From contig JAQGNY010000019.1 in the NCBI GenBank assembly GCA_028293825.1, positions 62,001-126,000 of the forward strand: a stretch of DNA of 64,000 nucleotides. Reading direction: 5' to 3'. This DNA comes from Verrucomicrobiaceae bacterium. Lineage in GTDB: Bacteria; Pseudomonadota; Gammaproteobacteria; Pseudomonadales; CAMLJR01. The notes under the pieces are model-generated. The model worked only from the letters and a program-made list of their open reading frames with translations, was not told the DNA's origin and made no database searches. Shown here in pieces: positions 1,722 to 41,972 of the stretch (its first letter is position 1; each line of letters begins with the position of its first letter). The translations under genes and the position numbers were made by a program.

Positions 1722-1795
1722 TGGAGCGGGTGATGGGAATCGAACCCACACTAGTAGCTTGGGAAGCTACAGTTCTACCATTGAACTACACCCGC
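1722..1795 (-). tRNA. glyU: tRNA-Gly (anticodon CCC), prophage integration site
   Basis: A full cloverleaf reads on the minus strand. The 5' acceptor strand GCGGGTG pairs with CACCCGC, and TCCA follows with CCA encoded. The anticodon stem GTAGC/GCTAC encloses the loop TTCCCAA, giving anticodon CCC. The T arm contains GGTTCGATTCC. It closely resembles E. coli glyU from memory. The first 27 nt (1769-1795) recur at 41946-41972, marking it as the prophage attachment site. DNA immediately upstream of the tRNA is therefore prophage DNA. Confidence 0.95.
1769..1795. repeat. attL core (27-bp direct repeat, left copy)
   Basis: Identical to 41946-41972. It corresponds to tRNA-Gly nucleotides 1-27 (5' acceptor strand and D arm). 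Sequence left of it is the rest of the intact tRNA. Crossover within this block leaves the tRNA whole but supplies its 5' part and upstream region from the phage. Confidence 0.9.
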
Positions 1796-1912: not shown

Positions 1913-2947
1913 CTATTTCGTTGGGTCAATGACGCGAATGCCGCGTCGATAATGTTTGCGTGTCATCGATACATTGGAGTGTCCGAGAATTTCTTGGGCG
2001 CGTTGTTCGCTGGCGGCGTCCGATCCCACTTTTGCGCGCAGGTCATGGCGAGTGAACGGCACCTTCAACGGGTTTTCCGGATCGCTAATTGCGAGCTGCA
2101 TCGTGCGTCGCCAAGCTTTATCGAACGGCTGTGTGCGACCGTCCGAAGACACAAAGCAATTGCCATCGCGATTGGTGAAAAGAAACATGCTGTTGCCGTG
2201 GCGAATTGATCTTGCTAAGTCCACCGCTGCGCGTAGCGGCAGAGTCCATCGAAACGTCGTCGCTTTATCAGTCTTTCTATCAATAATGTGCAAGCCGGTC
2301 TCGCGGTCATCCTGCAACACCGTCTGCAATACATCTGATTTACGCGCGCCCGTGAGCATCACTACGGCCGCAAATGCGCGCTGTACAGGCGTCGCTTTTT
2401 CCTGCCACGCGGCTAGCTCCCAATCTTCGACATAGCGATCGCGCGTCAATACGAGGCCGTCGCGCTTGCCGAAGTAAGAAACCTCGCCCTTAATTAAATT
2501 CTTTGGCACAACACCCCACCGCACAGCGCAATCCAAAATAATATTTATCATTTTCAATTGCATGTTGGCGACGTTCATCGTGCGATTTTTTGCAATGACG
2601 TCGAGGTATTGGTAGACCGCCTGCGGCTGGATTGTGGCGCATTTATTTGCACCAACCGAAAGGTTTAAGAGTTCCAGCGCAGCGCCGTAACTGGTGCGCG
2701 TTTGCGGCTTTAGTTTTGGTAAACGATCAAGGCGATAGCGATCGATTACTGATGCGACCGTATCGCCGATCTCCAGTTCTTTACGGTCGGCGAACGCGCG
2801 CAACGCCTCGGGGTAGGAGGTGCCAAGACGAAACCAGCTTTTGTTGTCGAACAGGGCGCGATCATCATGTCGCGTCCGATAATAGTAAGCTCCGTGCTTG
2901 AAGTCCCACCGGGAAGGTAGCGGGTGGTCATGCGCTTTTTTTGGCAT
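1913..2947 (-). CDS. int: Phage tyrosine integrase
   Basis: A 344-residue site-specific recombinase catalysing integration and excision at the tRNA-Gly site. The catalytic set is visible: Arg202 in TGARKSD, His301/Arg304 in TRHDLR, His323 in LGHSNVSM and nucleophile Tyr333 in RKHYRRG. An N-terminal arm-binding region and a core-binding SAM-like domain (about residues 60-150) precede it. The stop lies 118 bp from the attL core, the normal position for an integrase. Its ATG lies inside the end of the DUF4224 gene (20-bp overlap), so the two are translationally linked. It is the last gene of the leftward block. Confidence 0.95.
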   Translation of the reverse strand: MPKKAHDHPLPSRWDFKHGAYYYRTRHDDRALFDNKSWFRLGTSYPEALRAFADRKELEIGDTVASVIDRYRLDRLPKLKPQTRTSYGAALELLNLSVGANKCATIQPQAVYQYLDVIAKNRTMNVANMQLKMINIILDCAVRWGVVPKNLIKGEVSYFGKRDGLVLTRDRYVEDWELAAWQEKATPVQRAFAAVVMLTGARKSDVLQTVLQDDRETGLHIIDRKTDKATTFRWTLPLRAAVDLARSIRHGNSMFLFTNRDGNCFVSSDGRTQPFDKAWRRTMQLAISDPENPLKVPFTRHDLRAKVGSDAASEQRAQEILGHSNVSMTRKHYRRGIRVIDPTK

Positions 2948-4551: not shown

Positions 4552-4905
4552 TCATGCAGCAGGCGCGGTTGCATTTTTCTTCCACCCATTGGCTTGTTTG
4601 CCGATTGATGCGGTGAGCTGCATCGTCGCGGCATGCTGCTTAATGTTGATGAATTGTTTGTCCTTAAAAATTCGCGCCAGAAAATCCACCACTTGCACGC
4701 GCTCGACGATCTCCATCAAATGCGGAGTTTTATCGCGTGCGCCATTGGCTCTGGCGATTAGGACCAACAACTCAATACACTCGTCACGCATCTTTGCCCC
4801 GAGCCCGGCTTTCAAATCGCGTGGAATATTCCGCGTGATATCGGTGGCCAAGCTCAGCAAGTCGTAAGCGACTTTGTAAATGGGTAGTTGATGATGTAAT
4901 GCCAT
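4552..4905 (-). CDS. avd: DGR accessory variability determinant (Avd), four-helix bundle protein
   Basis: A 117-residue, helical, basic protein with the four-helix-bundle/S23-like signature of Avd: 'LPIYKVAYDLLSLATDITRNI' region, 'RDLKAGLGAKMRDECIELL', then 'QVVDFLARIFKDKQFINIKQ'. In the Bordetella phage DGR, Avd is a pentamer that binds the RT and template RNA and is essential for mutagenic retrohoming. It lies directly upstream of the template repeat and RT, and 46 bp after the second target gene. The C-terminus (last 12 residues) is low-complexity. Confidence 0.88.
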   Translation of the reverse strand: MALHHQLPIYKVAYDLLSLATDITRNIPRDLKAGLGAKMRDECIELLVLIARANGARDKTPHLMEIVERVQVVDFLARIFKDKQFINIKQHAATMQLTASIGKQANGWKKNATAPAA

Positions 4906-4923
4906 GCTGAAAAAAACTCGCGA

Positions 4924-4940
4924 AGGGCGCTGCGCGCCCT
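4924..4940 (-). repeat. GC hairpin downstream of variable target (4951-5559 gene)
   Basis: A perfect 7-bp inverted repeat AGGGCGC/GCGCCCT with a 3-nt loop, 32 bp beyond the VR boundary and just after the stop codon. On the minus strand a run of T follows a few bases later, so it could act as a weak terminator. Similar hairpins follow the other two targets, which fits the hairpin/cruciform element that helps target recognition in studied DGRs. Confidence 0.6.
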
Positions 4941-4950
4941 AAGAAAATAA

Positions 4951-5559
4951 TTAAATTACTGAATGACTAACGAATCTGCGGACTGCGCGAGCGCGAAACT
5001 CGTCGTCCTTGCAGTTGCTGCCCTGGAAGCCATCATCGAAGCCCTGACACCACGCGTTGTCCGCTGAGTACTGCGTGCTGGTCCAATGCCAGCCGGTCTC
5101 AAATAGCTCCGGCACGTTGACCCAGCACAGGCGCAGCTCGCGGCGCGAGGGCAGATAGAAATCGTTCAGGCCGTCGATGGTGAGGTTTGCTGCCCATTCG
5201 GCGGCCGGGTGATCGTGTTTCGATTCGCAGAGCGAGGTGGTATTCGCGAGGCCATCGAAATCAGATTTCGCGCCATCGATATCTTTTCCCCGGCCGCCCC
5301 ATTTGATCTCGGCTACGGCTGCCGCAGCGTTGGTCGGCACGATTAAGTGATAATCCGGCACGCCGTTTTCACCACGCATAGCGCCGGCATATACACCGCC
5401 TTGCTCGGGCCAGTGCGCACCAATCTTTGGAATGGCCGAAGTGGCAATTTCAGGCCGATCGAGAAACCGTCTTAAATAATCGTGAACAACGGCGCGGGCG
5501 GGCAATTGCACAATCGCATCGCCAATTTTCGTTGTGAATGTGTCGTGGGTTGGTCGCAT
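4951..5559 (-). CDS. DUF1566 lectin-like DGR target protein (variable protein 2)
   Basis: A 202-residue protein from the ATG at 5559 (GGAG 7 nt upstream). Its core resembles DUF1566/Lcl C-type-lectin-fold domains: 'GAHWPEQGGVYAG', 'WGGRGKDIDGAKSDFDGLANT', 'DFYLPSRRELRLCW', 'WHWTSTQYSA', with the variable segment and 'FRARAVRRF' at the end. The variable surface is AWCQGFDDGFQGSNCKDDEF. N-terminal to the lectin core is a 45-residue extension. No signal peptide or membrane segment is seen. Ligand unknown; DGR lectins normally display the variable residues on a binding face. It is paralogous to the products at 5618-6217 and 8875-9369 and lies directly upstream of avd. Confidence 0.88.
   Translation of the reverse strand: MRPTHDTFTTKIGDAIVQLPARAVVHDYLRRFLDRPEIATSAIPKIGAHWPEQGGVYAGAMRGENGVPDYHLIVPTNAAAAVAEIKWGGRGKDIDGAKSDFDGLANTTSLCESKHDHPAAEWAANLTIDGLNDFYLPSRRELRLCWVNVPELFETGWHWTSTQYSADNAWCQGFDDGFQGSNCKDDEFRARAVRRFVSHSVI
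4973..5075 (-). repeat. DGR variable repeat 2
   Basis: 103 bp aligned without gaps to the template repeat. Eleven template adenines are changed (for example TAT to TGT, AAC to GGC, AAC to TTC). One change is not at an adenine: GAC becomes TGC, including G to T. The 3' roughly 30 bp are identical to the template. Confidence 0.9.
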
Positions 5560-5583
5560 GGCGCTCTCCAAAATTTTGCGCGA

Positions 5584-5598
5584 GGGCGCTACGCGCCC
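5584..5598 (-). repeat. GC hairpin downstream of variable target (5618-6217 gene)
   Basis: Perfect 6-bp inverted repeat GGGCGC/GCGCCC with loop TAC, 35 bp beyond the VR boundary and 20 bp after the stop codon. No T-run follows closely on the minus strand, so termination is less likely than at the other copies. This favours a DGR-related role. Confidence 0.6.
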
Positions 5599-5617
5599 GA
5601 TAAATAAAATTATTGAA

Positions 5618-6217
5618 TTACTGAATAACTAATAATCTGCGGACTGCGCGAGCGCGAAACTCGTTGCCCTTGTCGAGGTTGCTCTGGAAGCCATCATCGA
5701 AGCCCTGATACCACGCGCTGTCCGCTGAGTACTGCGTGCTGCTCCAATACACCGTGTCGTCGAATGCTTCATCGCCGTCTGCTTTGAAAATTTCAACACC
5801 GGTCTGTGTCGGCAATTCCTCGGTGTATGCGTAAGTCGGTGGCACCGCGCTCACGTTTTCACCGTGGCGATAGGTGTAATTCTCTTCGTCGGTTGGCTTT
5901 AGGTTTCGATAAATAATTTCGAGCTCATCGCGGCTCGGCAAATACCAATCGGTAAAGCCGTTGATTTGCAGTTGATGTACCCATTCCGCTACCGGGCTTT
6001 TTGCAACAAGCAATGCGAGCGTGTTGCTGCGGCCATCCGCAAAGCTGCGGGCTTCGGGAATGTCTTTGCCGCGCTCGCCCCATGCGATGGCGGCGTGTTC
6101 GCCTTCAGCTTTTGGCGCAGCGATGATTGCGAATATTTCTTCGCCGACACGAATTTTACCGGCGTAAAAACCGCCTTCAAGTGGTGAGCCGATTACCGGC
6201 AAGTCTGCTGTTTGCAT
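5618..6217 (-). CDS. DUF1566 lectin-like DGR target protein (variable protein 1)
   Basis: A 199-residue protein starting at the ATG at 6217, which has TGAGG 8 nt upstream; a longer frame exists but lacks a ribosome site. Domain features: 'GGFYAGKIRVGEEIF', 'AWGERGKDIPEARSFADG', 'TDWYLPSRDELEIIYRNL', 'YWSSTQYSA', the variable segment 'WYQGFDDGFQSNLDKGNEF', then 'RARAVRRLL'. This is the DUF1566/Lcl C-type-lectin type. It differs from its two paralogues by an insert of about 30 residues before the variable strand. No secretion signal is visible. It is the middle of the target-target-avd-TR-RT run. Confidence 0.88.
   Translation of the reverse strand: MQTADLPVIGSPLEGGFYAGKIRVGEEIFAIIAAPKAEGEHAAIAWGERGKDIPEARSFADGRSNTLALLVAKSPVAEWVHQLQINGFTDWYLPSRDELEIIYRNLKPTDEENYTYRHGENVSAVPPTYAYTEELPTQTGVEIFKADGDEAFDDTVYWSSTQYSADSAWYQGFDDGFQSNLDKGNEFRARAVRRLLVIQ
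5634..5736 (-). repeat. DGR variable repeat 1
   Basis: 103 bp, ungapped against the template repeat. All differences inside the block fall on template adenines: AACAAC to GACAGC, AAC to GGC, AAC to TTC, AAC to AGC, AAC to CTC, AAC to GGC. The last roughly 30 bp are unchanged. Confidence 0.92.
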
Positions 6218-6243
6218 TTCGATTTCCTCAGTGTGGGGTTTGC

Positions 6244-6510
6244 TTAACGAGCCTTCCAAAGCCAAAATTTAAACCGTCGAATACCGCCACAGGCTGCGCG
6301 CATTTCGTCCATGCATTTTTCGATATGTTGTTCGCGCAGGTCGTGGTATTCGCATTTGCTTTTTAATTTCGTAAGCGATTCGTGCTTTTCGCCATTTGCG
6401 CCAAGTGCCCATAACTTCAATGCCCAAACTTGCGGACCTGCCGGCATTGGCCGATGAAAGCGCGGCTTCTCGCTGTGCACGGCGCTGTCATAGGTGGCGA
6501 TCAAAATCAT
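6244..6510 (-). CDS. Hypothetical phage protein
   Basis: An 88-residue basic protein rich in Arg, Lys, His and Trp, with four Cys/His-containing stretches ('CEYHDLREQHIEKC', 'AACGG'). No family is recognised. Its ATG overlaps the stop of the 35-codon gene upstream (ATGA), a sign of coupled translation. It is followed by the variable-protein 1 gene 27 bp later, so it belongs to the same leftward transcript. The 'C-x3-H..H-x3-C' spacing might bind a metal, but this is speculative. Confidence 0.6.
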   Translation of the reverse strand: MILIATYDSAVHSEKPRFHRPMPAGPQVWALKLWALGANGEKHESLTKLKSKCEYHDLREQHIEKCMDEMRAACGGIRRFKFWLWKAR

Positions 6511-6614
6511 TTAATTAAAAACAAAGCGAGCAGACCGCCGAGATACACAAGTGCTACGCAAAGGCTGGCTATTAACAATCCGCGTGGCGTGTGTTTTTTC
6601 AGTAGTGGATTCAT
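6507..6614 (-). CDS. Small single-pass membrane protein (35 aa)
   Basis: A short frame of 36 codons including the stop. The product begins MNPLLKKHTPRG and continues with about 20 hydrophobic residues ending in FLIK, giving one predicted transmembrane helix with a basic N-terminus. A GAGA-like ribosome site lies about 8 nt upstream. The stop TGA overlaps the ATG of the next gene, and the upstream gene ends 14 bp away, so the spacing fits a real gene in the operon. Function unknown; small membrane proteins in early phage regions often act on host envelope or exclusion. Confidence 0.55.
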   Translation of the reverse strand: MNPLLKKHTPRGLLIASLCVALVYLGGLLALFLIK

Positions 6615-6628
6615 TTAATTTTCTCGGT

Positions 6629-7081
6629 TCAGCTGGCTACGAAAATTATTCTTAATGGGCGATGGGCGATGGGCGGCTTCGGCTCGAATCGCAACAGCCA
6701 TGCATCTTTTATCCAGCCATGAAGCGTTAGGTCTGGTTCGATAATATTTCCGTCGGTGTCACACCAAATAGTCAGACGTTCGCTTCGTGCCCGCCGCGCA
6801 GCGTCTTCCGATAGCGAATGCGCATGCTCGGTCTCTCCGGTACCTTCACACCACGGACACTCCACATCTGTGGAAGCATTCGCAGCACTAACAAGCTCAA
6901 GCTCGCCTTCGCCTTCACAGTGTTTGCAATCGCCCGGCTGGACGCTGATGTCATCCGTATTGACCCACTCGAAAAACGGCCCGAAGGATGCGCGCTGAAA
7001 GCGCAAGCAGATCCAATTACCTTCGAGCGGGGGCTCGTTTTTAACAAACGCATTCATCGGCGGATTGGTAGAAAAATTCAT
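6629..7081 (-). CDS. Hypothetical phage protein with DnaJ-like zinc-finger motifs
   Basis: A 150-residue protein with an AAGGA ribosome site 8 nt before the ATG. Residues about 52-86 contain two DnaJ-type half-motifs, 'CKHCEGEGE' and 'CPWCEGTGE', that together could bind one zinc ion. Flanking regions contain 'PFFEWVNTDD' and a C-terminal strand-rich part ('LTIWCDTDGNIIEPD'). Such short CxxCxGxG proteins recur in phage early regions without a defined role. The motif alone does not make it a chaperone: there is no J domain. It lies in the leftward block between the 35-aa membrane gene and the gene at 7098. Confidence 0.65.
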   Translation of the reverse strand: MNFSTNPPMNAFVKNEPPLEGNWICLRFQRASFGPFFEWVNTDDISVQPGDCKHCEGEGELELVSAANASTDVECPWCEGTGETEHAHSLSEDAARRARSERLTIWCDTDGNIIEPDLTLHGWIKDAWLLRFEPKPPIAHRPLRIIFVAS

Positions 7082-7097
7082 TTGCGATTCCTTTTCG

Positions 7098-7394
7098 CTA
7101 GCTGGCGAGTGGTAACTGCTCAGTGCTGAAATGCAGATCGAGTGCTGCGCAGGTAATTAATTGCTTGGCCTCGCGATTCATCGGCTCTATTTTTAATTCG
7201 ATCACCACCAGCGACGCAGCGCGCACCGGGCACAGCGTGCGAAAGTAAGCAGCGCGAACGAGGGGTTGCAGCGCGAGCGTTTTTTCTAAATAAATTGACT
7301 CGCCGAGTGATTCACGTTTTTGGTCGCGCATTTCCAGCAACCGGTTCGCTTCGCGCAGCGGGGATTTCTTTATCTGTTTCGCTCGTTGCAGCAT
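7098..7394 (-). CDS. Hypothetical phage protein
   Basis: A 98-residue protein from the ATG at 7394 (GGAG 10 nt upstream). It overlaps the previous gene by 83 bp in another frame, which is long but seen in dense early phage regions. The sequence is helical and basic at the N-terminus ('MLQRAKQIKKSPLREANRLLE'), with a hydrophobic strand 'AASLVVIELKIEP' and a Leu-rich C-terminus. No family is recognised. The overlap lowers confidence that both frames are translated. Confidence 0.45.
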   Translation of the reverse strand: MLQRAKQIKKSPLREANRLLEMRDQKRESLGESIYLEKTLALQPLVRAAYFRTLCPVRAASLVVIELKIEPMNREAKQLITCAALDLHFSTEQLPLAS

Positions 7395-7521
7395 CGTCAA
7401 ACCACTCCACGTAAAGTTGATAACCAATATCGACAAACGCAGTCGTCTTACCCTGCGCGTGCAACTCGCGAATTCGTTGCATAGCCGCTTCGTAATTCGC
7501 GGCCAGCTCTAATTTCCGCAT
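7312..7521 (-). CDS. Hypothetical phage protein
   Basis: A 69-residue acidic/helical protein ('ELAANYEAAMQRIRELHAQGK', then 'AFVDIGYQLYVEWFDD'), with a disordered tail rich in Pro, Ala and Arg. AGGA lies 9 nt before the ATG. It starts inside the end of the KilAC-domain gene (74-bp overlap) and runs into the next gene. The coherent N-terminal half supports a real product. No family recognised. Confidence 0.5.
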   Translation of the reverse strand: MRKLELAANYEAAMQRIRELHAQGKTTAFVDIGYQLYVEWFDDAATSETDKEIPAARSEPVAGNARPKT

Positions 7522-7765
7522 CGATAATTTCCTGTAGCAGCGACATACCTTTTGCGGTAACGGTGCTCACCAAATATTGACGCGTGATATTGGTGCCGGG
7601 CTTTTTAAAGTCGCGCAGCTCGTTGATAAAATCGCCGGCTCTTTCGTATTTCGGCAGCGCGATATTCATGCTGCCGATGATTCGCTCGCGGCGAAGTGCC
7701 GCGTACAATTTGCGCGCGCAAACACCGAGCTGATGGGCAGCGTCAATAATCGTTGGCTTTTTCAT
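7448..7765 (-). CDS. KilAC-domain (phage antirepressor C-terminal) protein
   Basis: A 105-residue protein resembling the stand-alone KilAC/ANT domain: 'DAAHQLGVCARKLYAALRRERII', 'LPKYERAGDFINELRDFKKPG', 'YLVSTVTAKGMSLLQEII'. In longer proteins this winged-helix-like domain follows a Bro-N or Rha domain; here it stands alone. Possible roles are DNA binding and modulation of phage repressors, but family function is loosely known. Its start overlaps the stop of the upstream gene by 4 bp (ATGA), so they are coupled. The last 20 residues diverge from the family. Confidence 0.72.
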   Translation of the reverse strand: MKKPTIIDAAHQLGVCARKLYAALRRERIIGSMNIALPKYERAGDFINELRDFKKPGTNITRQYLVSTVTAKGMSLLQEIIDAEIRAGRELRSGYATNSRVARAG

Positions 7766-8049
7766 GCGGCTGGCCTCGTTGGATTTTGGCTACACAAAAT
7801 TGCGTTGAGTTTTGTTAACACTTCCTGCAGGCGGCGTTGCACGCGGCGCTTTACGAAATCAGATTCGCCGTCGTCATAAAGCTCAATGCATTCATTGATT
7901 ACCGGCTTTTCGTTCCATTTTTGTTTTGCAGTGACGCGTAGTTGATTAGCGATGCTGCTGAACTCGACCGCAACGGATGGCCCATTAACCGAGGCAATCT
8001 GCATTGCGATATCGATAATTTGACGGACCAGTTGCGGCAACGGATTCAT
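7762..8049 (-). CDS. Hypothetical phage protein
   Basis: A 95-residue protein starting at the ATG at 8049, which overlaps the stop of the dNMP kinase gene by 4 bp. It is almost entirely helical ('LVRQIIDIAMQIAS', 'FSSIANQLRVTAKQ', 'VKRRVQRRLQEVLTKLNAILC'). No known family is recognised. Overlaps at both ends place it firmly in the leftward operon. Confidence 0.6.
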   Translation of the reverse strand: MNPLPQLVRQIIDIAMQIASVNGPSVAVEFSSIANQLRVTAKQKWNEKPVINECIELYDDGESDFVKRRVQRRLQEVLTKLNAILCSQNPTRPAA

Positions 8050-8621
8050 GCGGCGTGCCTCCGCTGCAACTCGTTTACCCATGTATTTGCTTGGCGGTGC
8101 AGCAGCTCGATGCTGGCATTTAGAACGACATGGTCGCGATGGTTGATCGCTATCCCGGCTTCGCTTTCGTGATTGCCGATAGGCGTTAAATCGGGTCGCT
8201 CAATATGTAAAAGCTGACCTTTGCTGCGCACGAATTTCGCTTCGTTTTCCATGCGCACGTCGCTGATCACGATGCCGTTGTATTCGCGGTGCAGCGCTTG
8301 CTCGATAAAATCAATTCGCTCGCTGACCAGATTTACCCACAGGTCCGCGTCTATTAATTTGCGGCCCCACTCCGTGCCTAACGTTTGCATTAAGCGGCGC
8401 GGGCTCACGCCCAGCTCAGGTAATGGCGATTCTTTGGCCGCGCGATTGATAAGCATTGAATCCAAAATGCTGCGATCAATGCGCATGAGCGCAGCGATCA
8501 TGTCGCGAATCGGATCAGCAAAAGACACTTCAATAAATTGGTGCTGTTCAACCAAATATTTCGCCATCGTCGATTTGCCACTGCCGGCTGGGCCGGTGAG
8601 GCCGAGCAGGATCATTGGCAA
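8046..8621 (-). CDS. Deoxynucleoside monophosphate kinase-like protein
   Basis: A 191-residue P-loop kinase that probably phosphorylates dNMPs to feed phage DNA synthesis. The Walker A motif GPAGSGKST lies at residues 10-18. 'FADPIRDMIAALM' and 'LMQTLGTEWGRKLIDADLWVN' match the substrate-binding region of T4 gp1-like and other phage dNMP kinases. 'GIVISDVRMENEA' is the Walker-B-like strand with the Asp-Val-Arg motif common in that family. The start overlaps the upstream membrane-protein gene by 10 bp. Base specificity cannot be assigned. Confidence 0.8.
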   Translation of the reverse strand: MPMILLGLTGPAGSGKSTMAKYLVEQHQFIEVSFADPIRDMIAALMRIDRSILDSMLINRAAKESPLPELGVSPRRLMQTLGTEWGRKLIDADLWVNLVSERIDFIEQALHREYNGIVISDVRMENEAKFVRSKGQLLHIERPDLTPIGNHESEAGIAINHRDHVVLNASIELLHRQANTWVNELQRRHAA

Positions 8622-8818
8622 AACTCCGGCTTAGGTTGGTGACTGCACATCACGCGCTCTTGCATTTTTGCATCTTGATAATCGAGCGTGCCGGCGAGCG
8701 CGAGCGCGATAACAAAAATCGTCACTGCGTAAATGGTGCGTGCCTGATTGCGTGTAACCGCTCGGCGCACGTCGCGAAGCACGAGCAAGAAAAAAACGGA
8801 TATCTGTGAGGTTTGCAT
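8612..8818 (-). CDS. Small membrane protein
   Basis: A 68-residue protein from the ATG at 8818 (GAGG 10 nt upstream). The N-terminus is hydrophobic ('ISVFFLLVL'), followed by a basic stretch and a clear transmembrane segment 'TIYAVTIFVIALALAGTL', then a polar C-terminus with two Cys. No family is recognised. It lies between the frameshifted target gene and the dNMP kinase and overlaps the kinase start. Confidence 0.55.
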   Translation of the reverse strand: MQTSQISVFFLLVLRDVRRAVTRNQARTIYAVTIFVIALALAGTLDYQDAKMQERVMCSHQPKPEFCQ

Positions 8819-8844
8819 TTGCGGTGGCCTCAAAAAAAATTCCA

Positions 8845-8857
8845 GGCGCTGCGCGCC
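8845..8857 (-). repeat. GC hairpin downstream of variable target (8875-9369 gene)
   Basis: A 5-bp inverted repeat GGCGC/GCGCC with loop TGC, 34 bp beyond the VR boundary. On the minus strand it is followed by GGAA and eight T, so it also looks like a weak intrinsic terminator. The AT-rich spacer and hairpin repeat the arrangement at 4924 and 5584. Confidence 0.5.
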
Positions 8858-8874
8858 GAATAGAAATAATTAAA

Positions 8875-9369
8875 TTAATGAAGGACTGATGAATCTGCGG
8901 ACTGCGCGAGCGCGAAACTCGCCGCTCTTGACGATGATGAGCTGGCCGCCAACATCGAAGTTCTGAAACCACGCGGTGACGCTGAGTACTGCGTGCTGCT
9001 CCAATGCCAGTCATCGACGATTAATTGCGGAGCAACCAGCTTTATCAGTCGCAACTCGTGACGCGCAGGCAGATACAAATCGCGATGGCCATCGATGTCG
9101 AGCGCCATTATTTTTTGCGCCAAATCGCTGCCGTTTTCCGCCATGGCGTGGGTGTTGGCTACACCATCCCAATCGCTCCGAGCGCCCAAAATATCTTTGC
9201 CACGCTTGCCCCATTTCACATTGATAAGTAGCGCGCGCGGATCGGTAGGCGCTATCAGGTGGTAATCGGGCTGACCGTTTTGGCCCGGGCACAGCGCGAT
9301 AAAGATGCCGCCTTGTTCGGGCCAGTGTTCGCCAAGGCGCGGGGGTTTTGTTTGGGCTTGAGATGTCAT
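8875..9369 (-). CDS. DUF1566 lectin-like DGR target protein 3, frameshifted within its variable repeat
   Basis: The reading frame gives 164 residues. The first 130 match the other two targets: 'LGEHWPEQGGIFIALCPGQ', 'WGKRGKDILGARSDWDGVANT', 'HRDLYLPARHELRL', 'WHWSSTQYSA'. After that the product becomes Ser/Ala-rich. The VR is 102 bp instead of 103: one adenine of the template AACAAC is missing. Restoring it gives '..AWFQNFDVGGQLIIVKSGEF' and 'RARAVRRFISPS', with a stop at 8870. The gene is therefore out of frame at present but could be repaired by a further retrohoming event. No signal peptide. It lies away from the other two targets, early in the leftward transcript. Confidence 0.82.
   Translation of the reverse strand: MTSQAQTKPPRLGEHWPEQGGIFIALCPGQNGQPDYHLIAPTDPRALLINVKWGKRGKDILGARSDWDGVANTHAMAENGSDLAQKIMALDIDGHRDLYLPARHELRLIKLVAPQLIVDDWHWSSTQYSASPRGFRTSMLAASSSSSRAASFALAQSADSSVLH
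8892..8993 (-). repeat. DGR variable repeat 3 (one base shorter)
   Basis: 102 bp against 103 in the template. All substitutions fall on template adenines (TAT to TTT, GAT to GTT, AACAACAAC to CTCATCATC, GAC to GTC, AACAAC to AGCGGC). The single gap is best placed at the second adenine of the first AAC (AACAAC to TCACC). The 3' roughly 30 bp equal the template. Confidence 0.9.
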
Positions 9370-9380
9370 GGGCGGCTCCG

Positions 9381-9587
9381 TTAAATAATTTTTGCGGCAA
9401 TCAGCTTGCCGAGCTGTGCTTTGGTGAGTGCAACGACGTTGTCCGTGAGGGCGTTGACATCGATGGCTTGCTCGGCGGGTATGCGAGACGTGAGGCCCAC
9501 GGCAAATGCCTTGGCCAATTCCAGCGCCGCTTTTTTTCGATATCCGCGAGCTACTTGGTCGTCAATCTTCATTGCTTCTTCCTGCAT
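9381..9587 (-). CDS. Hypothetical phage protein, first gene of the leftward block
   Basis: A 68-residue helical protein from the ATG at 9587, which has AAGGA 7 nt upstream. It begins MQEEAMKIDDQVARGYRKKA and ends with 'NVVALTKAQLGKLIAAKII'. No family recognised. Operator-like boxes at 9604 and 9638 lie immediately upstream, making this the likely promoter-proximal gene of the transcript that continues through the DGR to the integrase. The third DGR target follows after 11 bp. Confidence 0.6.
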   Translation of the reverse strand: MQEEAMKIDDQVARGYRKKAALELAKAFAVGLTSRIPAEQAIDVNALTDNVVALTKAQLGKLIAAKII

Positions 9588-9603
9588 TGCGTGATCCTTG
9601 TGC

Positions 9604-9651
9604 AAACTGTAGCAATAGCTAATAAATAAAACAACAGCAAATGCTACAAAT
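9604..9651 (-). promoter_or_regulatory. Operator-like boxes upstream of the leftward block
   Basis: 9604-9615 on the minus strand reads TTGCTACAGTTT, identical over 12 bp to 13164-13175 between the divergent immunity genes. A second, weaker box (CAAATGCTACAAAT) lies at 9638-9651. They sit 16-60 bp upstream of the first leftward ATG, where a repressor would block a promoter. The promoter itself is not clear: T-rich sequence is present but no good -35/-10 pair. Confidence 0.5.
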
Positions 9652-9772
9652 TAGTAAATCTTTTTAAATCGTCCGGATAAGGGGATAGGCGCTCATTTGG
9701 TGCGCGAGTGGAGATGACAGAAAATTAAATGTTCGAGGAGGGCTTGCGGAGCGGTCTAAATCGGGTGCTATC

Positions 9773-9788
9773 CTGTATGCCTATACAG
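9773..9788 (+). promoter_or_regulatory. LexA (SOS) box
   Basis: CTGTATGCCTATACAG fits the CTGT-N8-ACAG consensus exactly, with an AT-rich centre and perfect 6-bp symmetry. It lies 15 bp before the ATG at 9804, so bound LexA would cover the promoter/start region of that gene. This predicts DNA-damage induction. LexA binding is inferred. Confidence 0.75.
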
Positions 9789-9803
9789 TGCTTGCCAGCT
9801 TTT

Positions 9804-10184
9804 ATGCCGACCTATTCCTTTCGAATTAGTACCCGCCCTCTGGAAGTGCTCACCGATGAGAGCGGGGGGAAGATCATTTTTCGAATGGCGAATGGTGAAA
9901 GCTGGGTTGGGGATTGGGCGGGAGTCATGGAGTCAGGTGTTGCGCGCAGCCTCAGACCTTGGGCTGAGCCGGTGAAGCTATTGATGGAGGCGTACCGGTT
10001 CGACAATCACCCATGGATCGATATAGAGACAGGCGGGCATATGTGGGGTTGTGTAATTCGAGGAGCGGCCCTAGGGCAAGCCGCCGTGTTCGCGCTGCTC
10101 AATAAAGGTTTGCCCGTCCTGAAGAAGCCGGCGCTAAACCTCAAACCGCAGGCGAAAAAAAGCCCGCACGGGGCGGGCTCCTGA
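9804..10184 (+). CDS. Hypothetical SOS-controlled phage protein, antirepressor candidate
   Basis: A 126-residue protein from the ATG at 9804; a longer frame to 9729 would run through the LexA box and is not preferred. The N-terminal half is strand-rich ('YSFRISTRPLEVLTDESGGKIIF', 'ANGESWVGDWAGV'), followed by a helical part ('EPVKLLMEAYRF', 'GAALGQAAVFALL') and a basic tail. No family is recognised. The LexA box just upstream, its solitary plus-strand position in the left arm, and a repressor without a visible peptidase domain suggest a role like the Tum antirepressor of phage 186, which is LexA-controlled and of similar size. No sequence similarity is claimed. Its 3' end overlaps a terminator. 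Confidence 0.55.
   Translation: MPTYSFRISTRPLEVLTDESGGKIIFRMANGESWVGDWAGVMESGVARSLRPWAEPVKLLMEAYRFDNHPWIDIETGGHMWGCVIRGAALGQAAVFALLNKGLPVLKKPALNLKPQAKKSPHGAGS
10155..10178 (-). terminator. Intrinsic terminator of the toxin-antitoxin operon
   Basis: On the minus strand GCCCGC and GCGGGC form a 6-bp GC stem followed by seven T. It lies 18 bp after the stop of the gene at 10196, in the right orientation to end that transcript. It is embedded in the last codons of the plus-strand gene. Confidence 0.75.
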
Positions 10185-10195
10185 TTGCTCTGGAA

Positions 10196-10648
10196 TTAGG
10201 CAGCAGCCACTTTCTTTTGCCACCCGTTTTCCGTTTCTACGAATTGGATCTGCATGGCGACATGTTCTTTCTTATCAAGCTGATTTAGTCGATCAACCAT
10301 ATCTTTGATTGAGCTTTTATCGTCGACGCAATCTTTGTAAATAAAGCGCAAAAGTCGATCAGCCGTCCCGCTAATAGCGTTATCGCCGCTCTCCCATTTA
10401 CGTACCGTAATCTCCTTTACATCAAGAAACTCAGCCAGTCTGCGCTGTGACATGTCCATCTCCTTTCTCAGGTAACGGATTTCGTCCGCAGATAATGCCT
10501 CCGCGCTTTCGATAACACAGAGACCAATTGCTTTGTGCAAGCCCTTTAAGTCCTGAATAGAAAACGCTTCGCCATAGGGCGTTTCCTCGATGGAGAAGCC
10601 GTTCTCTAAGTAGACATTGGGCAAACCGCATAGCTTGTAGTGAAACAT
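10196..10648 (-). CDS. MqsA-like HTH antitoxin
   Basis: A 150-residue protein with a central XRE/MqsA-type helix-turn-helix: 'SADEIRYLRKEMDMSQRRLAEFL' and 'VKEITVRKWESGDNAISG' (about residues 52-92). The N-terminal part (1-45) is strand-rich, with 'YKLCGLPNVYLENGFSIEETPYGE', and may hold the toxin-binding region. It has no CxxC zinc site like E. coli MqsA, so only the HTH half matches well. It starts 2 bp after the DUF4258 gene and is therefore the second gene of a toxin-first operon. Autoregulation through the palindrome at 10992-11010 is likely. Confidence 0.7.
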   Translation of the reverse strand: MFHYKLCGLPNVYLENGFSIEETPYGEAFSIQDLKGLHKAIGLCVIESAEALSADEIRYLRKEMDMSQRRLAEFLDVKEITVRKWESGDNAISGTADRLLRFIYKDCVDDKSSIKDMVDRLNQLDKKEHVAMQIQFVETENGWQKKVAAA

Positions 10649-10650
10649 GC

Positions 10651-10971
10651 TTAGCCCTCCGAAATATGCAACACGTGAATCTTCCTGTCATTAGCACTGC
10701 CAGCTTCTTCGACGGCAATTGCAATATGGATATCTTGACCGGCAGAGATGTAAGTGAGGTTGCACAAAGTATGCCCATGCTCACCAATTACCGGGGTGTA
10801 ACTCATATAGCCGCACTCCAAACATTTCCAAATCTGACTCATGGAAACATTGCCGGCGACACCTTTCTCAAATGCCAAGGCGAAAAAAACCCGCGAGGAA
10901 TCTTTTGCGATCTCGCGTATTGCGTTTAACAGCGCCCCAGAATTTGAAAGAAACGGCTTTATCTCAGCCAA
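10651..10971 (-). CDS. DUF4258-like protein, candidate toxin
   Basis: A 106-residue protein read from a TTG at 10971 with GGAG 8 nt upstream. 'MSQIWKCLECGYMSYTPVIGEHGH' followed by 'LTYISAGQDIHIAIAVEE' and 'KIHVLHI' fits the DUF4258 pattern, a fold related to BECR ribonuclease toxins. The companion HTH gene lies 2 bp downstream, and a strong promoter with a palindromic operator lies upstream, as in mqsRA or higBA operons. The toxic activity is inferred. It may serve prophage maintenance or defence. Confidence 0.6.
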   Translation of the reverse strand: MAEIKPFLSNSGALLNAIREIAKDSSRVFFALAFEKGVAGNVSMSQIWKCLECGYMSYTPVIGEHGHTLCNLTYISAGQDIHIAIAVEEAGSANDRKIHVLHISEG

Positions 10972-10991
10972 ATGGTTTTCTCCGTCCCTGC

Positions 10992-11026
10992 ACCGATATT
11001 TAATATCGGTATCGTGCGCATGTCAA
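10992..11026 (-). promoter_or_regulatory. Promoter with palindromic operator of the toxin-antitoxin pair
   Basis: On the minus strand TTGACA (11021-11026) and TTAAAT (10998-11003) are separated by exactly 17 bp. The -10 lies inside a perfect 9-bp inverted repeat with a 1-bp centre (ACCGATATT/AATATCGGT, 10992-11010). This is the classic arrangement for autorepression by the antitoxin's HTH domain. Confidence 0.75.
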
Positions 11027-11128
11027 GCCTTACCACATCTTAAAGTTTAATAAAAGCATCTAGATGATCGCCGCGACTTACTTCTCCGGCGCTTCGCCAC
11101 CGGCATCCTTATTCATTTCGCCCTGGAT

Positions 11129-11737
11129 TTAGCCGGCCTGCTTCCTGCGAGCGACCACAACGCCAACCAAGCCAGCCGCCAGCAAGCCTATCGAGCTCGG
11201 CTCAGGTACTTCCGTCAATCGATCAATAATGCCGCTGATATACCCGTAATAACCATTTCCATTCATGTACATCAGCCCAAATGTTCCGCCGATAAACTCA
11301 CCATTGGCGAAGTTAAAAGCAAAGTTTTGGATGGTAGATTCCAGCCCGCCAGAATAGCTAAGCCGTGGTCCTTCGACGTGCCACCCAATCACGTCTTCAT
11401 TAGCAAAGACTGAGTCCTCACAGCCCTGACCAGATTGCGCGTAATACGTCGCGCCTTCGGTCGCAATTTCATAGCTGAGATCACGACTATCGCAGGAATG
11501 CTCTGGCGGCAAAGTGGCGGCATCTAGAGTGAACTGCCCAAAGGCCGAAGATTTCCCGTTAAAGATGGCGCTTCCATCCTTGCCAATCAGTGGCAAGTTC
11601 GGATCGACAACGCCGATCGGGAAGTCTCCACTATGAACAAAGTTAAATTCGGTGACCTCGCCCGAAAATAAATAGGTGGCCGGGTAAGCGTGAGCCGTGG
11701 TCGAAACAATGGCAGTTAGTAGCAAGGCAGTGCGCAT
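11129..11737 (-). CDS. Secreted PEP-CTERM anchor protein carried by the prophage
   Basis: A 202-residue protein from the ATG at 11737 (AAGGA upstream). It has a short Sec signal peptide ending near 'TAHAYPA', a strand-rich body with four Cys, and a C-terminal PEP-CTERM sorting tail: 'VPEPSS', a hydrophobic helix and the basic end 'ARRKQAG'. Proteins of this kind are sorted and cleaved by EpsH/exosortase, often alongside exopolysaccharide genes. No exosortase lies in the window, so the host must supply it. It is the third gene of a small leftward cargo group after the lipoprotein and the small membrane protein. Body function unknown. Confidence 0.85.
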   Translation of the reverse strand: MRTALLLTAIVSTTAHAYPATYLFSGEVTEFNFVHSGDFPIGVVDPNLPLIGKDGSAIFNGKSSAFGQFTLDAATLPPEHSCDSRDLSYEIATEGATYYAQSGQGCEDSVFANEDVIGWHVEGPRLSYSGGLESTIQNFAFNFANGEFIGGTFGLMYMNGNGYYGYISGIIDRLTEVPEPSSIGLLAAGLVGVVVARRKQAG

Positions 11738-11752
11738 ATGATTCCTTTGCAT

Positions 11753-11962
11753 TCACGCGTCGGGCGGCGTTTCGTTTTTAAGCGCATTCTCTATCGCTTC
11801 CAGACGGCGGTTTGCGGTTTCGGCCAAACCGAGTGCGCGATCGATACGCCCCTTAATGCCGAACACTGCAAAAGGCAGAAAGAACCAAAGTGCAGCAGTT
11901 ATGAATAGAAAAATGATGAGAATGCCACCGAGGGTGCCGGTGAAAAGGGTGCTGTTATTCAT
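11753..11962 (-). CDS. Small membrane protein
   Basis: A 69-residue protein from the ATG at 11962. It has one long hydrophobic segment ('TLGGILIIFLFITAALWFFL', perhaps continuing) near the N-terminus and a charged helical tail 'RIDRALGLAETANRRLEAIENAL' likely to form a coiled coil in the cytoplasm. No family recognised. It lies 10 bp after the lipoprotein gene and 15 bp before the PEP-CTERM gene, so the three appear co-transcribed. Confidence 0.6.
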   Translation of the reverse strand: MNNSTLFTGTLGGILIIFLFITAALWFFLPFAVFGIKGRIDRALGLAETANRRLEAIENALKNETPPDA

Positions 11963-11972
11963 GGTTATTCCC

Positions 11973-12410
11973 TTATTTGGTGGAGACTGATCCAACTAAA
12001 AAATTAGCATCGTAAACAACGCCCGCCTGACCCTCTTTGGTCTTAAGCAATTGCGCGGTGATGTTCGTTAGGGTGCTGGTATTAGCGTAGGTTTGCCCGG
12101 CGCCGAATGAACCGAAATATCCGCCGCCGGTTGCGCCGACGGTATCTTTTGCGGTTTGAGCTTCAACCGTTTTGAAATAGGGGTAGCCCTCACGCAGTGC
12201 GATTTCGGCGGCTTTTTTCAGTACATATTTCTTAGTGGTATCGCGGTCGGTGTAATTGTTGCCGGTGAAGTCCACTTGCCATAAATCTGGGCCAAGCTGA
12301 GTTTCTGAAAACCCCATTCCGCCTGTCCAGCCGGATTTTTTGGTATCGTAAGGTGTGGCGCAAGCGGCAAGCAGCGTGATCAAAAGAACGGTAAATAGAT
12401 GCTTAATCAT
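11973..12410 (-). CDS. Lipoprotein, CC0125/CC1285-like
   Basis: A 145-residue lipoprotein from the ATG at 12410. The signal peptide 'MIKHLFTVLLITLLAAC' ends in an LAAC lipobox, with Cys17 the lipidated residue. The body, 'SGWTGGMGFSETQLGPDLW' and 'FTGNNYTDRDTTKKYVLKKAAEIAL', resembles the CC0125/CC1285 lipoprotein family, which has a conserved repeated-strand plus helix unit. Expected at the inner leaflet of the outer membrane (Ala at +2). It is the first gene of the cargo group and may alter the envelope of lysogens. Confidence 0.75.
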   Translation of the reverse strand: MIKHLFTVLLITLLAACATPYDTKKSGWTGGMGFSETQLGPDLWQVDFTGNNYTDRDTTKKYVLKKAAEIALREGYPYFKTVEAQTAKDTVGATGGGYFGSFGAGQTYANTSTLTNITAQLLKTKEGQAGVVYDANFLVGSVSTK

Positions 12411-12515
12411 GGTGTCTCCATTTCGATAAGCAGGAAGACACGACGCGCCCTCCATGGTGGTTTCAAATTATTGTAGTTGTTAATCCGGTATTGTCCCTTT
12501 TTCGTGGTGGCGCAC

Positions 12516-13151
12516 TCAGCTGGCTTTGGTCTTTTGTTCTCCCTGGGCGTTGTTCTTCCGGTCTCTAAATTCATCGAGAGCGGCCATTGCGCCTGCAAGA
12601 TACTCGCTTAAATTAACTAGTTCGGGTTCATCGTCCAATCCAAGATTTTGAGAGTCGGGCAGATTGATGAGTTCATTGCCGCTCAATTGTGTCGCCGGGG
12701 CGGATTGGCTGGCTAAGTCAATCACCGAATTAATAGTCCGCAGCAACGTACTGCTTAAGCGGCCGCGCGAATCTAAATCCACTAACCGTTTGATGGTTTT
12801 CTGCACGGCCAGCGATTGCGACGGCGCATACCTCTTGGGCGTTTCTTCGCTGACTCCATCGGGTTTTCCAGCGTCGACGACCAGCTTCCGTCCGAGAGCA
12901 TTTTCAAGCTTCCTTGTTGTTCTGTCGCCAATGTTGCGATTTCCGCTAAGCAGCTGCCGAAAGTAATTTTCTGTAATACCGATCTCACCAAGTCCATGGT
13001 CACGCCAAAAAGTGGCCACCTTAACTTCGCCAATGATGGCTTCGAGAGCTGTACGTCTCTCGTTGGCGAGCGGGTCCGTGGAGTCTTTTTTCATATTTTG
13101 GAGAATGGCATAACTGTTAGCATTTGATATAGACGCAAAAGCTGTAGACAT
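12516..13151 (-). CDS. Phage repressor-like HTH protein without a visible peptidase domain
   Basis: A 211-residue protein divergent from the small cro-like gene, the position of a CI-type repressor. A DNA-binding helix-turn-helix is likely at about residues 45-90 ('GITENYFRQLLSGNRNIGDRTTRKLENALG'). The C-terminal 120 residues are helical and hydrophilic. There is no S24/LexA peptidase signature (no Ala-Gly cleavage site followed by the Ser/Lys dyad), so RecA-stimulated self-cleavage is not expected. The start could instead be the ATG at 13094. Boxes at 13112-13175 probably are its operators. Repressor identity is inferred from position and fold. Confidence 0.7.
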   Translation of the reverse strand: MSTAFASISNANSYAILQNMKKDSTDPLANERRTALEAIIGEVKVATFWRDHGLGEIGITENYFRQLLSGNRNIGDRTTRKLENALGRKLVVDAGKPDGVSEETPKRYAPSQSLAVQKTIKRLVDLDSRGRLSSTLLRTINSVIDLASQSAPATQLSGNELINLPDSQNLGLDDEPELVNLSEYLAGAMAALDEFRDRKNNAQGEQKTKAS

Positions 13152-13175
13152 AAATTTGAGCGTTTGCTACAGTTT
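13112..13175. promoter_or_regulatory. Immunity-region operator-like boxes
   Basis: Related boxes: AACTGTTAGCA at 13112-13122, AAAGCTGTAGAC at 13138-13149 (inverted relative to the next) and TTGCTACAGTTT at 13164-13175. The last is identical over 12 bp to a box at 9604-9615. They span the divergent start region and the likely promoters of the repressor and the cro-like gene. Confidence 0.5.
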
Positions 13176-13196
13176 TCCACGGAGGACACCTGAACC

Positions 13197-13424
13197 ATGT
13201 TTAAAAACTACTTAAAAGGGCTGAGCCCAGAACAAAAAAGCGATCTCGCGAAGCGCTGCTCAACCACCGTTGGTCAACTTCGCCAAGTTGCATGTGGCGC
13301 GCGCCAAGCTGGTGAATCGCTTGCAATCAATATTGAGCGTGAGAGCGGCGGTGCGGTTACCTGCGAATCGCTGCGGCCTGACGTTGATTGGGCTTATCTG
13401 CGCGGCACCAAGAAGGCTGCTTGA
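13197..13424 (+). CDS. Cro/YdaS-like small DNA-binding protein
   Basis: A 75-residue protein beginning the rightward early operon. 'LSPEQKSDLAKRCSTTVGQLRQVACGARQAGESLAINIERESGG' has the spacing of YdaS/Cro-type helix-turn-helix proteins (helices at about 10-20 and 24-34). 'VTCESLRPDVDWAYLRG' is the usual C-terminal part of YdaS-like antitoxin/regulators. GGAGG lies 12 nt before the ATG. By position opposite the repressor it probably acts as the lytic switch regulator. Confidence 0.72.
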   Translation: MFKNYLKGLSPEQKSDLAKRCSTTVGQLRQVACGARQAGESLAINIERESGGAVTCESLRPDVDWAYLRGTKKAA

Positions 13425-13515
13425 GATAAAGCTTAAACACTGATGCGCCAAATCCAAATAGTGAACTCAACGCGCAGCCACTGACTGCATTGCTATAACA
13501 AAAAAGGCGGAACAA

Positions 13516-13986
13516 ATGGACAACAACGAGCGGGCGCAGTGGGCGCATTTGGATTTAAAGCAGGCGATACATCACGCGGCAAAACAATATCCTGGCGGCG
13601 TGGGCGCCATTGCTGGCGCGTACGGATATAACGCGCACACCTTTCAAAATAAATTAAATCCGACGCAGCCGAGCTGCATCAACGTCGATGAATTCGAATC
13701 GATTTTGCAATCGACGCGCAGCGCATTAATTCTTGATGCGATAGGGCGGTTGGTTTCGTGCGCATGGGTGGACCTCGGCCAGTTCGATGAAATTGGCGAT
13801 ATGGCGGTATTGGATACCGTGAATAAATTAGTGCAGAGCGTCGGGCAATTAACGGGCGATCTGCAAAAAGCGTTGCAAGACGGCAGCGTTTCAAAGCGTG
13901 AGCTGGATCGGCTCGAACAAGATTTCGCGATGTTAACTGCGGCGGGTCACGCGGTGATCGAGCGCGCCAAACAATTTTTGGAGTAG
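13516..13986 (+). CDS. Phage regulatory protein, CII/CP76 family
   Basis: A 156-residue protein. 'AIHHAAKQYPGGVGAIAGAYGYNAHTFQNKLNP' is the characteristic N-terminal HTH of the phage CP76/CII-type family, followed by 'CINVDEFESILQST' and a helical C-terminus (100-156) with a coiled-coil look. Related proteins regulate the lysis-lysogeny decision or early replication transcription. It follows the cro-like gene, consistent with a lambda-like cII position. Confidence 0.75.
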   Translation: MDNNERAQWAHLDLKQAIHHAAKQYPGGVGAIAGAYGYNAHTFQNKLNPTQPSCINVDEFESILQSTRSALILDAIGRLVSCAWVDLGQFDEIGDMAVLDTVNKLVQSVGQLTGDLQKALQDGSVSKRELDRLEQDFAMLTAAGHAVIERAKQFLE

Positions 13987-13993
13987 ATAATAA

Positions 13994-14188
13994 ATGCAAA
14001 AGTTAGAAGCACATGGCCACCCAAAAGATGTGCATTGGGCAGATGCGACGGTGTGTTGGTGTGAAAGGCGAGGCGGGTGGATATTGCCGGGCCGTGAGCT
14101 GACGCAGTTGCGCGTGCGTGCTGTTGAAGTGGCAAAACGCATTGCCGACATTCACGCGAAATCAAAACCGCTAAAAGCCGCCGCCTGA
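13994..14188 (+). CDS. Hypothetical phage protein
   Basis: A 64-residue protein 7 bp after the CII-like gene. It begins MQKLEAHGHPKDVHWADATVC and contains 'WCERRGGWILPGRELT' and a basic helical tail. No family recognised. Overlapping or near-touching spacing on both sides supports it as a real member of the replication operon. Confidence 0.55.
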   Translation: MQKLEAHGHPKDVHWADATVCWCERRGGWILPGRELTQLRVRAVEVAKRIADIHAKSKPLKAAA

Positions 14189-14203
14189 TCTGAGGGTTTC
14201 GCC

Positions 14204-15049
14204 ATGCAAGATGTACACGCGCAGCTTGAGGCTGCGGGGTTAATTGTCGACGGCAATCTGGAAATAGCTCGGCTGGTGCGGTGTAAAACTGATTCCGACA
14301 CGCACGCTAAAAAATCGGGCTGGTACGTGCTGCATGAATTTAGATTGCGCAATGGTGCGACGGTGATGACCGGTCGCTATGGCAATTGGAAAAAGTACGG
14401 CGATGAATCGTTCAAAATAGAATTTGAATTGCCACCCCTAAGCGATGAAGAGCGTGCCGAGTTTGCACAGCGCCAAGCAGATCAACGCGATCAGGCCGAG
14501 CAGGAAAAAAACCAAAGAGCCGATGACGCCGCGACGCGCGCGAATAAGATTTTTTCAAAGCTGCCGGACTCTGGCGCATCCGATTATTTAAAACGAAAAA
14601 AGGTGCGCGCATTCGGTTTGCGATTTTCACGCGGCTCAATTGTTGTGCCTGTGCAAACTATCGATGGCAATTTAATCGGCCTGCAATTTATCGCTGCGGA
14701 TGGCAGCAAAAAGTTTTTAACGGGCACGGCAAAGCGTGGCGCATTTCATTTGATTGGCGATATCCAAGCCGCTGCACCACTGGCAATCGCCGAAGGTTAT
14801 GCAACCGCCGCGAGCATTCATATGGCCGCCGGCTGGCCCGTTGTTGTGGCATTTGATGCCGGCAATTTAATGCCGGTGGCGCAAGCGCTGCGCGCGAAAT
14901 ATCCGGATCAATTAATGGTTGTCTGTGCGGATGATGATTCGCAAACGGTAGGTAATCCCGGCGTAACGAAAGCGACCGAGGTGGCGCGCGTTATCGAAGC
15001 AAAGCTGTGGGTGCCGGTGTTTTCAATTGATCAGCAGGCTGCCGCATGA
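14204..15049 (+). CDS. TOPRIM-domain primase-like protein
   Basis: A 281-residue protein. The C-terminal half is a phage TOPRIM domain: 'PLAIAEGYATAASIHMAAGW' with the catalytic Glu, then 'VVVAFDAGNLMPVAQALR' and 'LMVVCADDDSQTVGNPG' with the metal-binding DxD. The N-terminal part (1-90) resembles the DNA-binding region of stand-alone phage primases, and a Glu/Gln-rich linker lies around 85-110. It probably synthesises primers together with the helicase-like gene, which starts 4 bp before its stop (ATGA-type overlap). Confidence 0.82.
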   Translation: MQDVHAQLEAAGLIVDGNLEIARLVRCKTDSDTHAKKSGWYVLHEFRLRNGATVMTGRYGNWKKYGDESFKIEFELPPLSDEERAEFAQRQADQRDQAEQEKNQRADDAATRANKIFSKLPDSGASDYLKRKKVRAFGLRFSRGSIVVPVQTIDGNLIGLQFIAADGSKKFLTGTAKRGAFHLIGDIQAAAPLAIAEGYATAASIHMAAGWPVVVAFDAGNLMPVAQALRAKYPDQLMVVCADDDSQTVGNPGVTKATEVARVIEAKLWVPVFSIDQQAAA

Positions 15050-16731: not shown

Positions 16732-16774
16732 TACCCGGAGTTTTATTTTTGCAGGTATTTGATTATGTGGAAAA

Positions 16775-41945: not shown

Positions 41946-41972
41946 ACAGTTCTACCATTGAACTACACCCGC
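41946..41972. repeat. attR core (27-bp direct repeat, right copy)
   Basis: Identical to the first 27 nt of tRNA-Gly at 1769-1795. Sequence just left of it (about 41921-41945) is a degenerate version of the adjacent anticodon-arm part of the tRNA, so similarity to the tRNA extends a little beyond the perfect block. Confidence 0.9.

Follow-up and report, generated by a model that had tools for sequence, protein, structure and literature searches.

It is through LexA-controlled genes that prophages and conjugative elements sense damage to the DNA of their host, and only a few of the effectors under such control are known. The locus described here, in which a LexA box precedes a small prophage gene, raises two questions: whether LexA controls the gene, and what its product does for the element that carries it.

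A motif scan of the window, i.e., the whole 64-kb stretch of DNA that was analyzed, detected a single exact CTGT-N8-ACAG sequence, CTGTATGCCTATACAG. The end of this box is separated by a gap of 15 bp from the ATG at 9804 of a gene that we call P0001, whose translation on the plus strand comprises 126 codons. Motif scan and translation thus confirmed the first-pass annotation of this DNA, which had reported an exact LexA-consensus box 15 bp ahead of a 126-codon gene. That annotation had also recognized no family for the gene. Searches of Pfam, PHROGs, and NCBIfam (E up to 0.1) and of PADLOC (E up to 0.01) likewise assigned P0001 to no family, yet profiles found relatives, as described below, so it is not an orphan. 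The gene lies in a 40-kb prophage, probably bounded by two 27-bp direct repeats and containing an integrase, a terminase, Rz, a Glyco_hydro_108 gene, and an HK97-type portal. No phage record close to positions 2000-16800 of the window was found. The features of the locus are as follows:

1769..1795: probable left att site, a 27-bp direct repeat at the tRNA-Gly 5' end
1913..2947, minus strand: prophage integrase (PF00589, E 2e-8; phrog_1)
9773..9788: LexA (SOS) box CTGTATGCCTATACAG, the only exact match in the window; motif shared by host SOS genes and most relatives
9804..10184, plus strand: P0001, candidate SRAP-like SOS gene, 126 aa (translation; family-profile score)
12516..13151, minus strand: probable repressor without S24 peptidase, no Pfam family, divergent to the YdaS-like and CII-like genes
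13197..13424, plus strand: YdaS-like regulator in the Cro position (PF15943, E 7e-8)
13516..13986, plus strand: CII-like regulator, Phage_CP76 (PF06892, E 2e-21; phrog_101)
41946..41972: probable right att site, the partner of the 27-bp direct repeat at 1769..1795

Exact CTGT-N8-ACAG motifs are expected 0.18 times per window, and at least one was present in 18 of 100 shuffled sequences. In the host genome, the bare motif occurred at 17 places, compared with 22 for a reversed-pattern control. Because it showed no genome-wide enrichment, the motif of CTGTATGCCTATACAG is by itself weak evidence. We read the neighboring genes at 15 of the 17 places, among which were sites ahead of lexA (C41), recA (C7), and imuA (C52), the genes being assigned by NCBIfam. 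Similarly, the box C27, CTGTATGCGTATACAG, which is one base off CTGTATGCCTATACAG, precedes a short gene adjoining DNA polymerase IV. Since these sites precede lexA, recA, imuA, and a neighbor of DNA polymerase IV, it appears from sequence that the host LexA very probably reads the CTGT-N8-ACAG motif.

Relatives of P0001 and their boxes

Used alone as a query, P0001 retrieved no relative from viral contigs, genome contigs, phages, or plasmids. A search of 293 related genomes yielded three weak matches that rose above the rest (L018-L020, E 5e-5 to 3e-3); 21 of these genomes, including the window's own, gave matches at E 0.1, and the other 17 (16.7 bits or less) were left out. A profile built from L018-L020 and P0001 (A2) had matches in 12 of 292 genomes, including the three seed genomes and a stretch with stops (L074) in genome G255. 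Within the class, the same profile matched in 6 of 369 genomes, namely the window's own and those with L061-L063, which are like the mini-SRAPs described below, with the fragment L064, and with L065 (E 0.009). Two carriers were Zhongshania marina and Litorivivens lipolytica, each recognized by an identical protein. With the Zhongshania protein as query, the virus contigs L079-L082 were obtained, and an alignment search then added L087.

P0001 was then scored against a profile of 12 relatives from which it had been left out, although several of the 12 had come from profiles containing P0001. It reached 21.1 bits (E 2.5e-5), compared with at most 10.7 bits for 1000 shuffled versions of P0001 and at most 5.6 for the other 488 frames of the window. 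More distant relatives were found in phrog_15882, a family of 186-like Vibrio phages. All seven tested relatives of P0001 matched phrog_15882 (E 1.6e-5 to 0.15), neither of the two mini-SRAPs did, and each of the five tested phrog_15882 proteins scored 15.8-19.7 bits against the family profile. P0001 itself did not match phrog_15882 at E 0.1, and the Vibrio-type profile did not recover P0001 at E 10. The contigs L088-L112 are called Vibrio-type because all nine named phage records that matched are Vibrio phages. A genome search with phrog_15882 gave matches in 2 of 398 genomes, L083 (box present) and L084 (box absent), the latter retrieving no relatives from viral contigs when used as a query.

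Further searches added little: alignment A1 retrieved nothing from viral contigs, profile A11 yielded no additional intact member in 274 further genomes, the L039 protein had no match in phages, the L038 protein had none in plasmids, and L069 had a single plasmid match, in Marinobacter (E 0.03). Two sets of candidates were taken as chance, namely L045, a viral-contig match of the L039-type search that was portal-like by eye, and the matches of L070 to Salmonella and Escherichia phages (E 0.9). The profile links place P0001 in a dispersed family linked to mobile elements.

These relatives were found by protein similarity alone, the LexA box having played no part in the search. To survey the boxes, we used 23 upstream regions of 150 bp each, including that of P0001 and six of the phrog_15882 Vibrio type. 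An exact box was present in 17 of the 23 regions, and a box with one mismatch in three (L069, L037, and the truncated copy L066); no box was found within 150 bp of the mini-SRAPs L076 and L077 or of L084. In 2000 mononucleotide shuffles of the same 23 regions, the mean was 0.031 boxes and the maximum 2. Seven relatives (L073, L079-L082, L087, and, with its one mismatch, L069) have a box whose end is only 1-2 bp away from the ATG, and in L037 and L039 it sits ahead of a small upstream gene in the same apparent operon. In the phrog_15882 contigs L088-L112, an exact box was located 98-118 bp upstream in 25 of 25. These proteins thus resemble P0001 in having a box ahead, in their similar size, and in their weak profile similarity, whereas their box is about 100 bp from the gene and adjoins the integrase start. 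Considered by whole record, exact boxes numbered one in G1011, one in G1013, and three in G1010.

Omitted from the 23 regions as duplicates were L070 and L085, whose protein is that of L079, L086 (protein of L073), L067 and L068 (identical to L066), and L046-L048 (loci L037-L039). Also omitted were L075, which is of the L039 type with an internal stop and has an exact box, a second partial copy on L037, L064, L065, L074, which has internal stops, and L078, which lies at a contig end. Of the 25 contigs L088-L112, 20 were likewise omitted.

The box evidence is strong because of the host sites at lexA, recA, imuA, and polymerase IV and the retention of the box before most relatives. LexA control of P0001, as proposed in the first-pass annotation, is well supported at the sequence level by its exact box, by the motif of the host SOS genes, and by these retained boxes. 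A chance box ahead of an unrelated or dead reading frame would agree with the 0.18 bare motifs expected per window, with the lack of genome-wide enrichment, and with a promoter scan that detected no sigma-70-like promoter on the plus strand at 9300-10700. This explanation is, however, very improbable, as the box is conserved ahead of relatives found independently of it and P0001 lies well above its own shuffles in family-profile score.

The relatives occupy different genomic settings. L069 and L070 lie at prophage edges adjoining tail-like genes (by eye), L038 lies in an ICE-like stretch with TraG_N, and L039 and L037 adjoin integrases (a tyrosine integrase by Pfam and an integrase by eye, respectively). 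L066 adjoins HipAB-like genes, L072 and L073 are in stretches without evident phage genes (by eye), and the phrog_15882 relatives adjoin the integrase of 186-like Vibrio phages. Because these settings are so varied, the family resembles an SOS cassette that moves between elements more than a component of a single phage's regulatory block.

As a separate observation, the family gene occurs twice at positions 5461-9016 of L037, once complete and once partial, on either side of a 940-aa ORF beside an integrase-like gene. L039 holds a very similar pair of gene and integrase, possibly a small mobile unit.

Probable likeness to the SRAP fold

Two short proteins, which we term mini-SRAPs, bridge the family and the SRAP proteins:

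L076, 7194-7610, plus strand: mini-SRAP of 138 aa, MC start, no PF02586 match
L077, 6094-6510, minus strand: mini-SRAP of 138 aa, MC start, PF02586 match below cut-off

L077 (MCGG...HDRWP) also ends in HDRWP, and we take this combination of an MC start and an HDRWP end to resemble SRAP proteins. L077 matched PF02586 with E 5e-4 and 20.1 bits, against a curated cut-off of 27.1; P0001, seven relatives, and L076 had no match to this family. When the family profile was compared with an alignment of the two mini-SRAPs, the probability was 96.5 and E was 1e-9. The comparison between the mini-SRAPs and the SRAP profile was weak and colinear. Nothing was found when the family profile was compared directly with the SRAP alignment, and YedK was not found in PDB sequence searches with the family profile or with L077. 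The host genome itself had no SRAP match at E 0.001.

Predicted structures provided a second line. The AlphaFold model of P0001 (pLDDT 69.7) matched nothing at Z of at least 2 among 998 chains. For the L079 protein, which is 23% identical to P0001, a model with pLDDT 76.0 and pTM 0.70 was obtained, and 9 of the 998 chains reached Z 2 against it. Each of the seven entries listed was YedK, with Z 6.0-6.1 and rmsd 3.1-3.5 over 99-102 residues, a Z of 6 being a value that can reflect a common structural arrangement. Foldseek searches of the PDB and of viral models gave no significant match. With no match for the P0001 model, it is the L079 relative that carries the case for an SRAP-like fold. The sequence and model lines were obtained separately and are in agreement.

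We then considered the catalytic residues. Cys2 is missing in all eight family rows and present in both mini-SRAPs. In alignment A4, which was made via the mini-SRAP L077, the His160 position falls in a gap in all eight rows, and an equivalent of Glu105 is found in two of the eight, with Phe in P0001. In one study, crosslinking by YedK is driven by Glu105 and His160 (PMC9436759), so the usual SRAP chemistry is not expected here. Taken together, the profile comparisons and the model of the L079 relative suggest that the family has a shortened SRAP (YedK/HMCES)-like fold without Cys2 and His160. Such a fold would make DNA damage the likely sphere of action.

Like SRAP proteins (YedK/HMCES, PF02586), the family is linked to SOS and likely has a related beta-rich core, with L076 and L077 as the bridge. 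Unlike them, its members have 102-126 aa, compared with 210-227 in YedK chains, lack an equivalent of Cys2 and His160, and are not recognized by Pfam. SRAP genes have been described in phages and prophages: in one study, an Acinetobacter prophage SRAP gene is among the genes depending on the damage-response regulators DdrR and UmuDAb (PMC7273328), and in another the full SRAP of Marinobacter phage PS3 is read as possibly protecting phage replication (PMC8424206). What appears to be new is a shortened, catalytically degenerate, LexA-boxed SRAP-like branch that spans several kinds of element; in the open-licence literature, no paper on such an SRAP-like mobile-element family was found by title.

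The reading that we favor, and to which we give about an even chance, is that P0001 encodes an SOS effector derived from an SRAP-like protein and put to a new use, with damaged or single-stranded DNA, or else an SOS or repair protein of the host, as its target. For P0001 we infer LexA binding, induction, and molecular action as follows. The box and the gene would constitute a self-contained LexA-repressed cassette carried by the prophage, in which LexA on the box would silence P0001. Upon DNA damage, RecA-stimulated cleavage of LexA would release P0001 independently of the prophage repressor. The non-crosslinking SRAP-like product would then act during SOS, to the benefit of the element, on such DNA or on such a host protein, instead of serving as an antirepressor specific to a single type of repressor.

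Repressors of the carriers and possible roles

The ORF at 12516-13151 is taken as the probable prophage repressor because it is divergent to the YdaS-like and CII-like genes, the usual layout of an immunity region. In the host genome (96% complete), the Peptidase_S24 profile matched LexA and nothing else. Because the only genomic S24 match is LexA, the likely repressor is without S24 self-cleavage, and the absence of a peptidase signature reported in the first-pass annotation agrees with this result and with the lack of a Pfam family. Relatives of the repressor were limited to one weak match beyond its own in 293 genomes, and none was found in phage records or viral contigs.

From the box and this repressor, the first-pass annotation had proposed a candidate SOS antirepressor. 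Such an SOS-induced protein would bind an uncleavable prophage repressor and lift immunity; the relatives might act alike in their own elements or in trans on the repressors of neighboring elements. LexA control, at the level of sequence, and a likely repressor without S24 have both held, and the antirepressor role itself is possible. It draws support from the other carriers as well. Among the virus records with relatives, two of seven had an S24 match and five, fragments among them, had none; the genome of the L069 prophage had a single S24 match, which is taken for LexA. Vibrio phage PQ189377.1 (37,360 bp) has a CI of the 186 type (Phage_CI_repr and Phage_CI_C) with no S24 match, and its one exact LexA box is located between int and a distant relative of P0001:

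PQ189377.1 (L131), 1421-1436: LexA box, 17 bp before the integrase start codon

In this phage the integrase starts at 1403 and the small gene at 1537. Because the integrase start is the nearer one, the box may serve int, the small gene, or both. As a side observation, the integrase of this 186-like phage may itself be SOS-controlled.

Aravind et al. are also cited in support of an antirepressor, and there are precedents. In the 186 Tum, N15 AntC, and Gifsy GftA/GfoA systems, as probably in the window, LexA controls a small prophage gene and the repressor does not cleave itself. Unlike these genes, members of the P0001 family are also seen alongside S24 repressors and away from evident prophages, and P0001, as compared through Pfam, PHROGs, and NCBIfam, shares no match with them. 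By contrast with the window, the carrier prophages G1010 (L079) and G1013 (L087) have S24 repressors, in which, by eye, Ala-Gly precedes the peptidase part and Ser and Lys are in the expected places. The gene needs no uncleavable repressor in these two carriers. With S24 repressors in these carriers and with some copies located away from evident prophages, the presence of the gene is not strictly tied to the type of repressor. Those copies that adjoin integrases or lie in chromosomal or ICE-like regions likewise argue against an antirepressor, as does a window repressor nearly without relatives beside a dispersed gene family. The S24 carriers are not decisive, because Salmonella Fels-1 has a cleavable repressor and an antirepressor is made nonetheless (PMC3121763). 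Overall, we consider an antirepressor, the main rival of the effector reading, rather unlikely for P0001, with the best support among 186-like phages.

Alternatively, like DinI or GIL01 gp7, the protein could modulate the SOS response through binding to RecA, LexA, or some other SOS protein. The presence of a lone gene with a LexA box in mobile elements of several kinds would be in keeping with such a modulator. GIL01 gp7 is reported to bind LexA and inhibit its cleavage (PMC4551915), and in Acinetobacter, DdrR acts as a corepressor for genes of the damage response (PMC7273328). P0001, however, has no Pfam match to any SOS modulator, and we regard this role as quite improbable.

The repurposed SRAP-like effector, which remains our preferred reading, may be extended one step further: the SRAP fold minus its abasic-site chemistry could have become a LexA-controlled switch by which prophages and conjugative elements leave a damaged host, via either the removal of various kinds of repressor or the direct sensing of damaged DNA. 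We put this extension forward as speculation that is more probably wrong than right by a wide measure. The family would tie several kinds of element together through one switch and one likely fold. A 2013 proposal that phage-encoded SRAP is an induction switch becomes testable in a form without known SRAP chemistry, and a candidate can be named for the damage response of 186-like Vibrio phages whose CI has no S24.

Other features of the prophage

Several further features of the prophage were observed. On the minus strand at about 10155-10179, within the P0001 3' end, inspection by eye showed a hairpin with T after it, which the promoter scan did not list. This hairpin may terminate the minus-strand genes of 10196-10971, namely an HTH gene that weakly resembles the MqsA family (below cut-off) and its small partner, which matches phrog_5393. 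Together the two look like a toxin-antitoxin pair. Near the immunity region, the prophage also encodes a PEP-CTERM-motif protein (11129-11752, minus strand), an unusual cargo.

Positions 3159-9369 of the window contain a diversity-generating retroelement, with its reverse transcriptase at 3159-4634 on the minus strand, one template repeat, and three variable repeats (4926-5059, 5587-5720, and 8845-8978). In the first 88 nt, 11 of 12, 10 of 11, and 13 of 13 differences of the variable repeats fell on template adenines. Two of the retroelement targets match Lcl_C, one of them below cut-off, and the third has an apparent frame shift at its own repeat (by eye).
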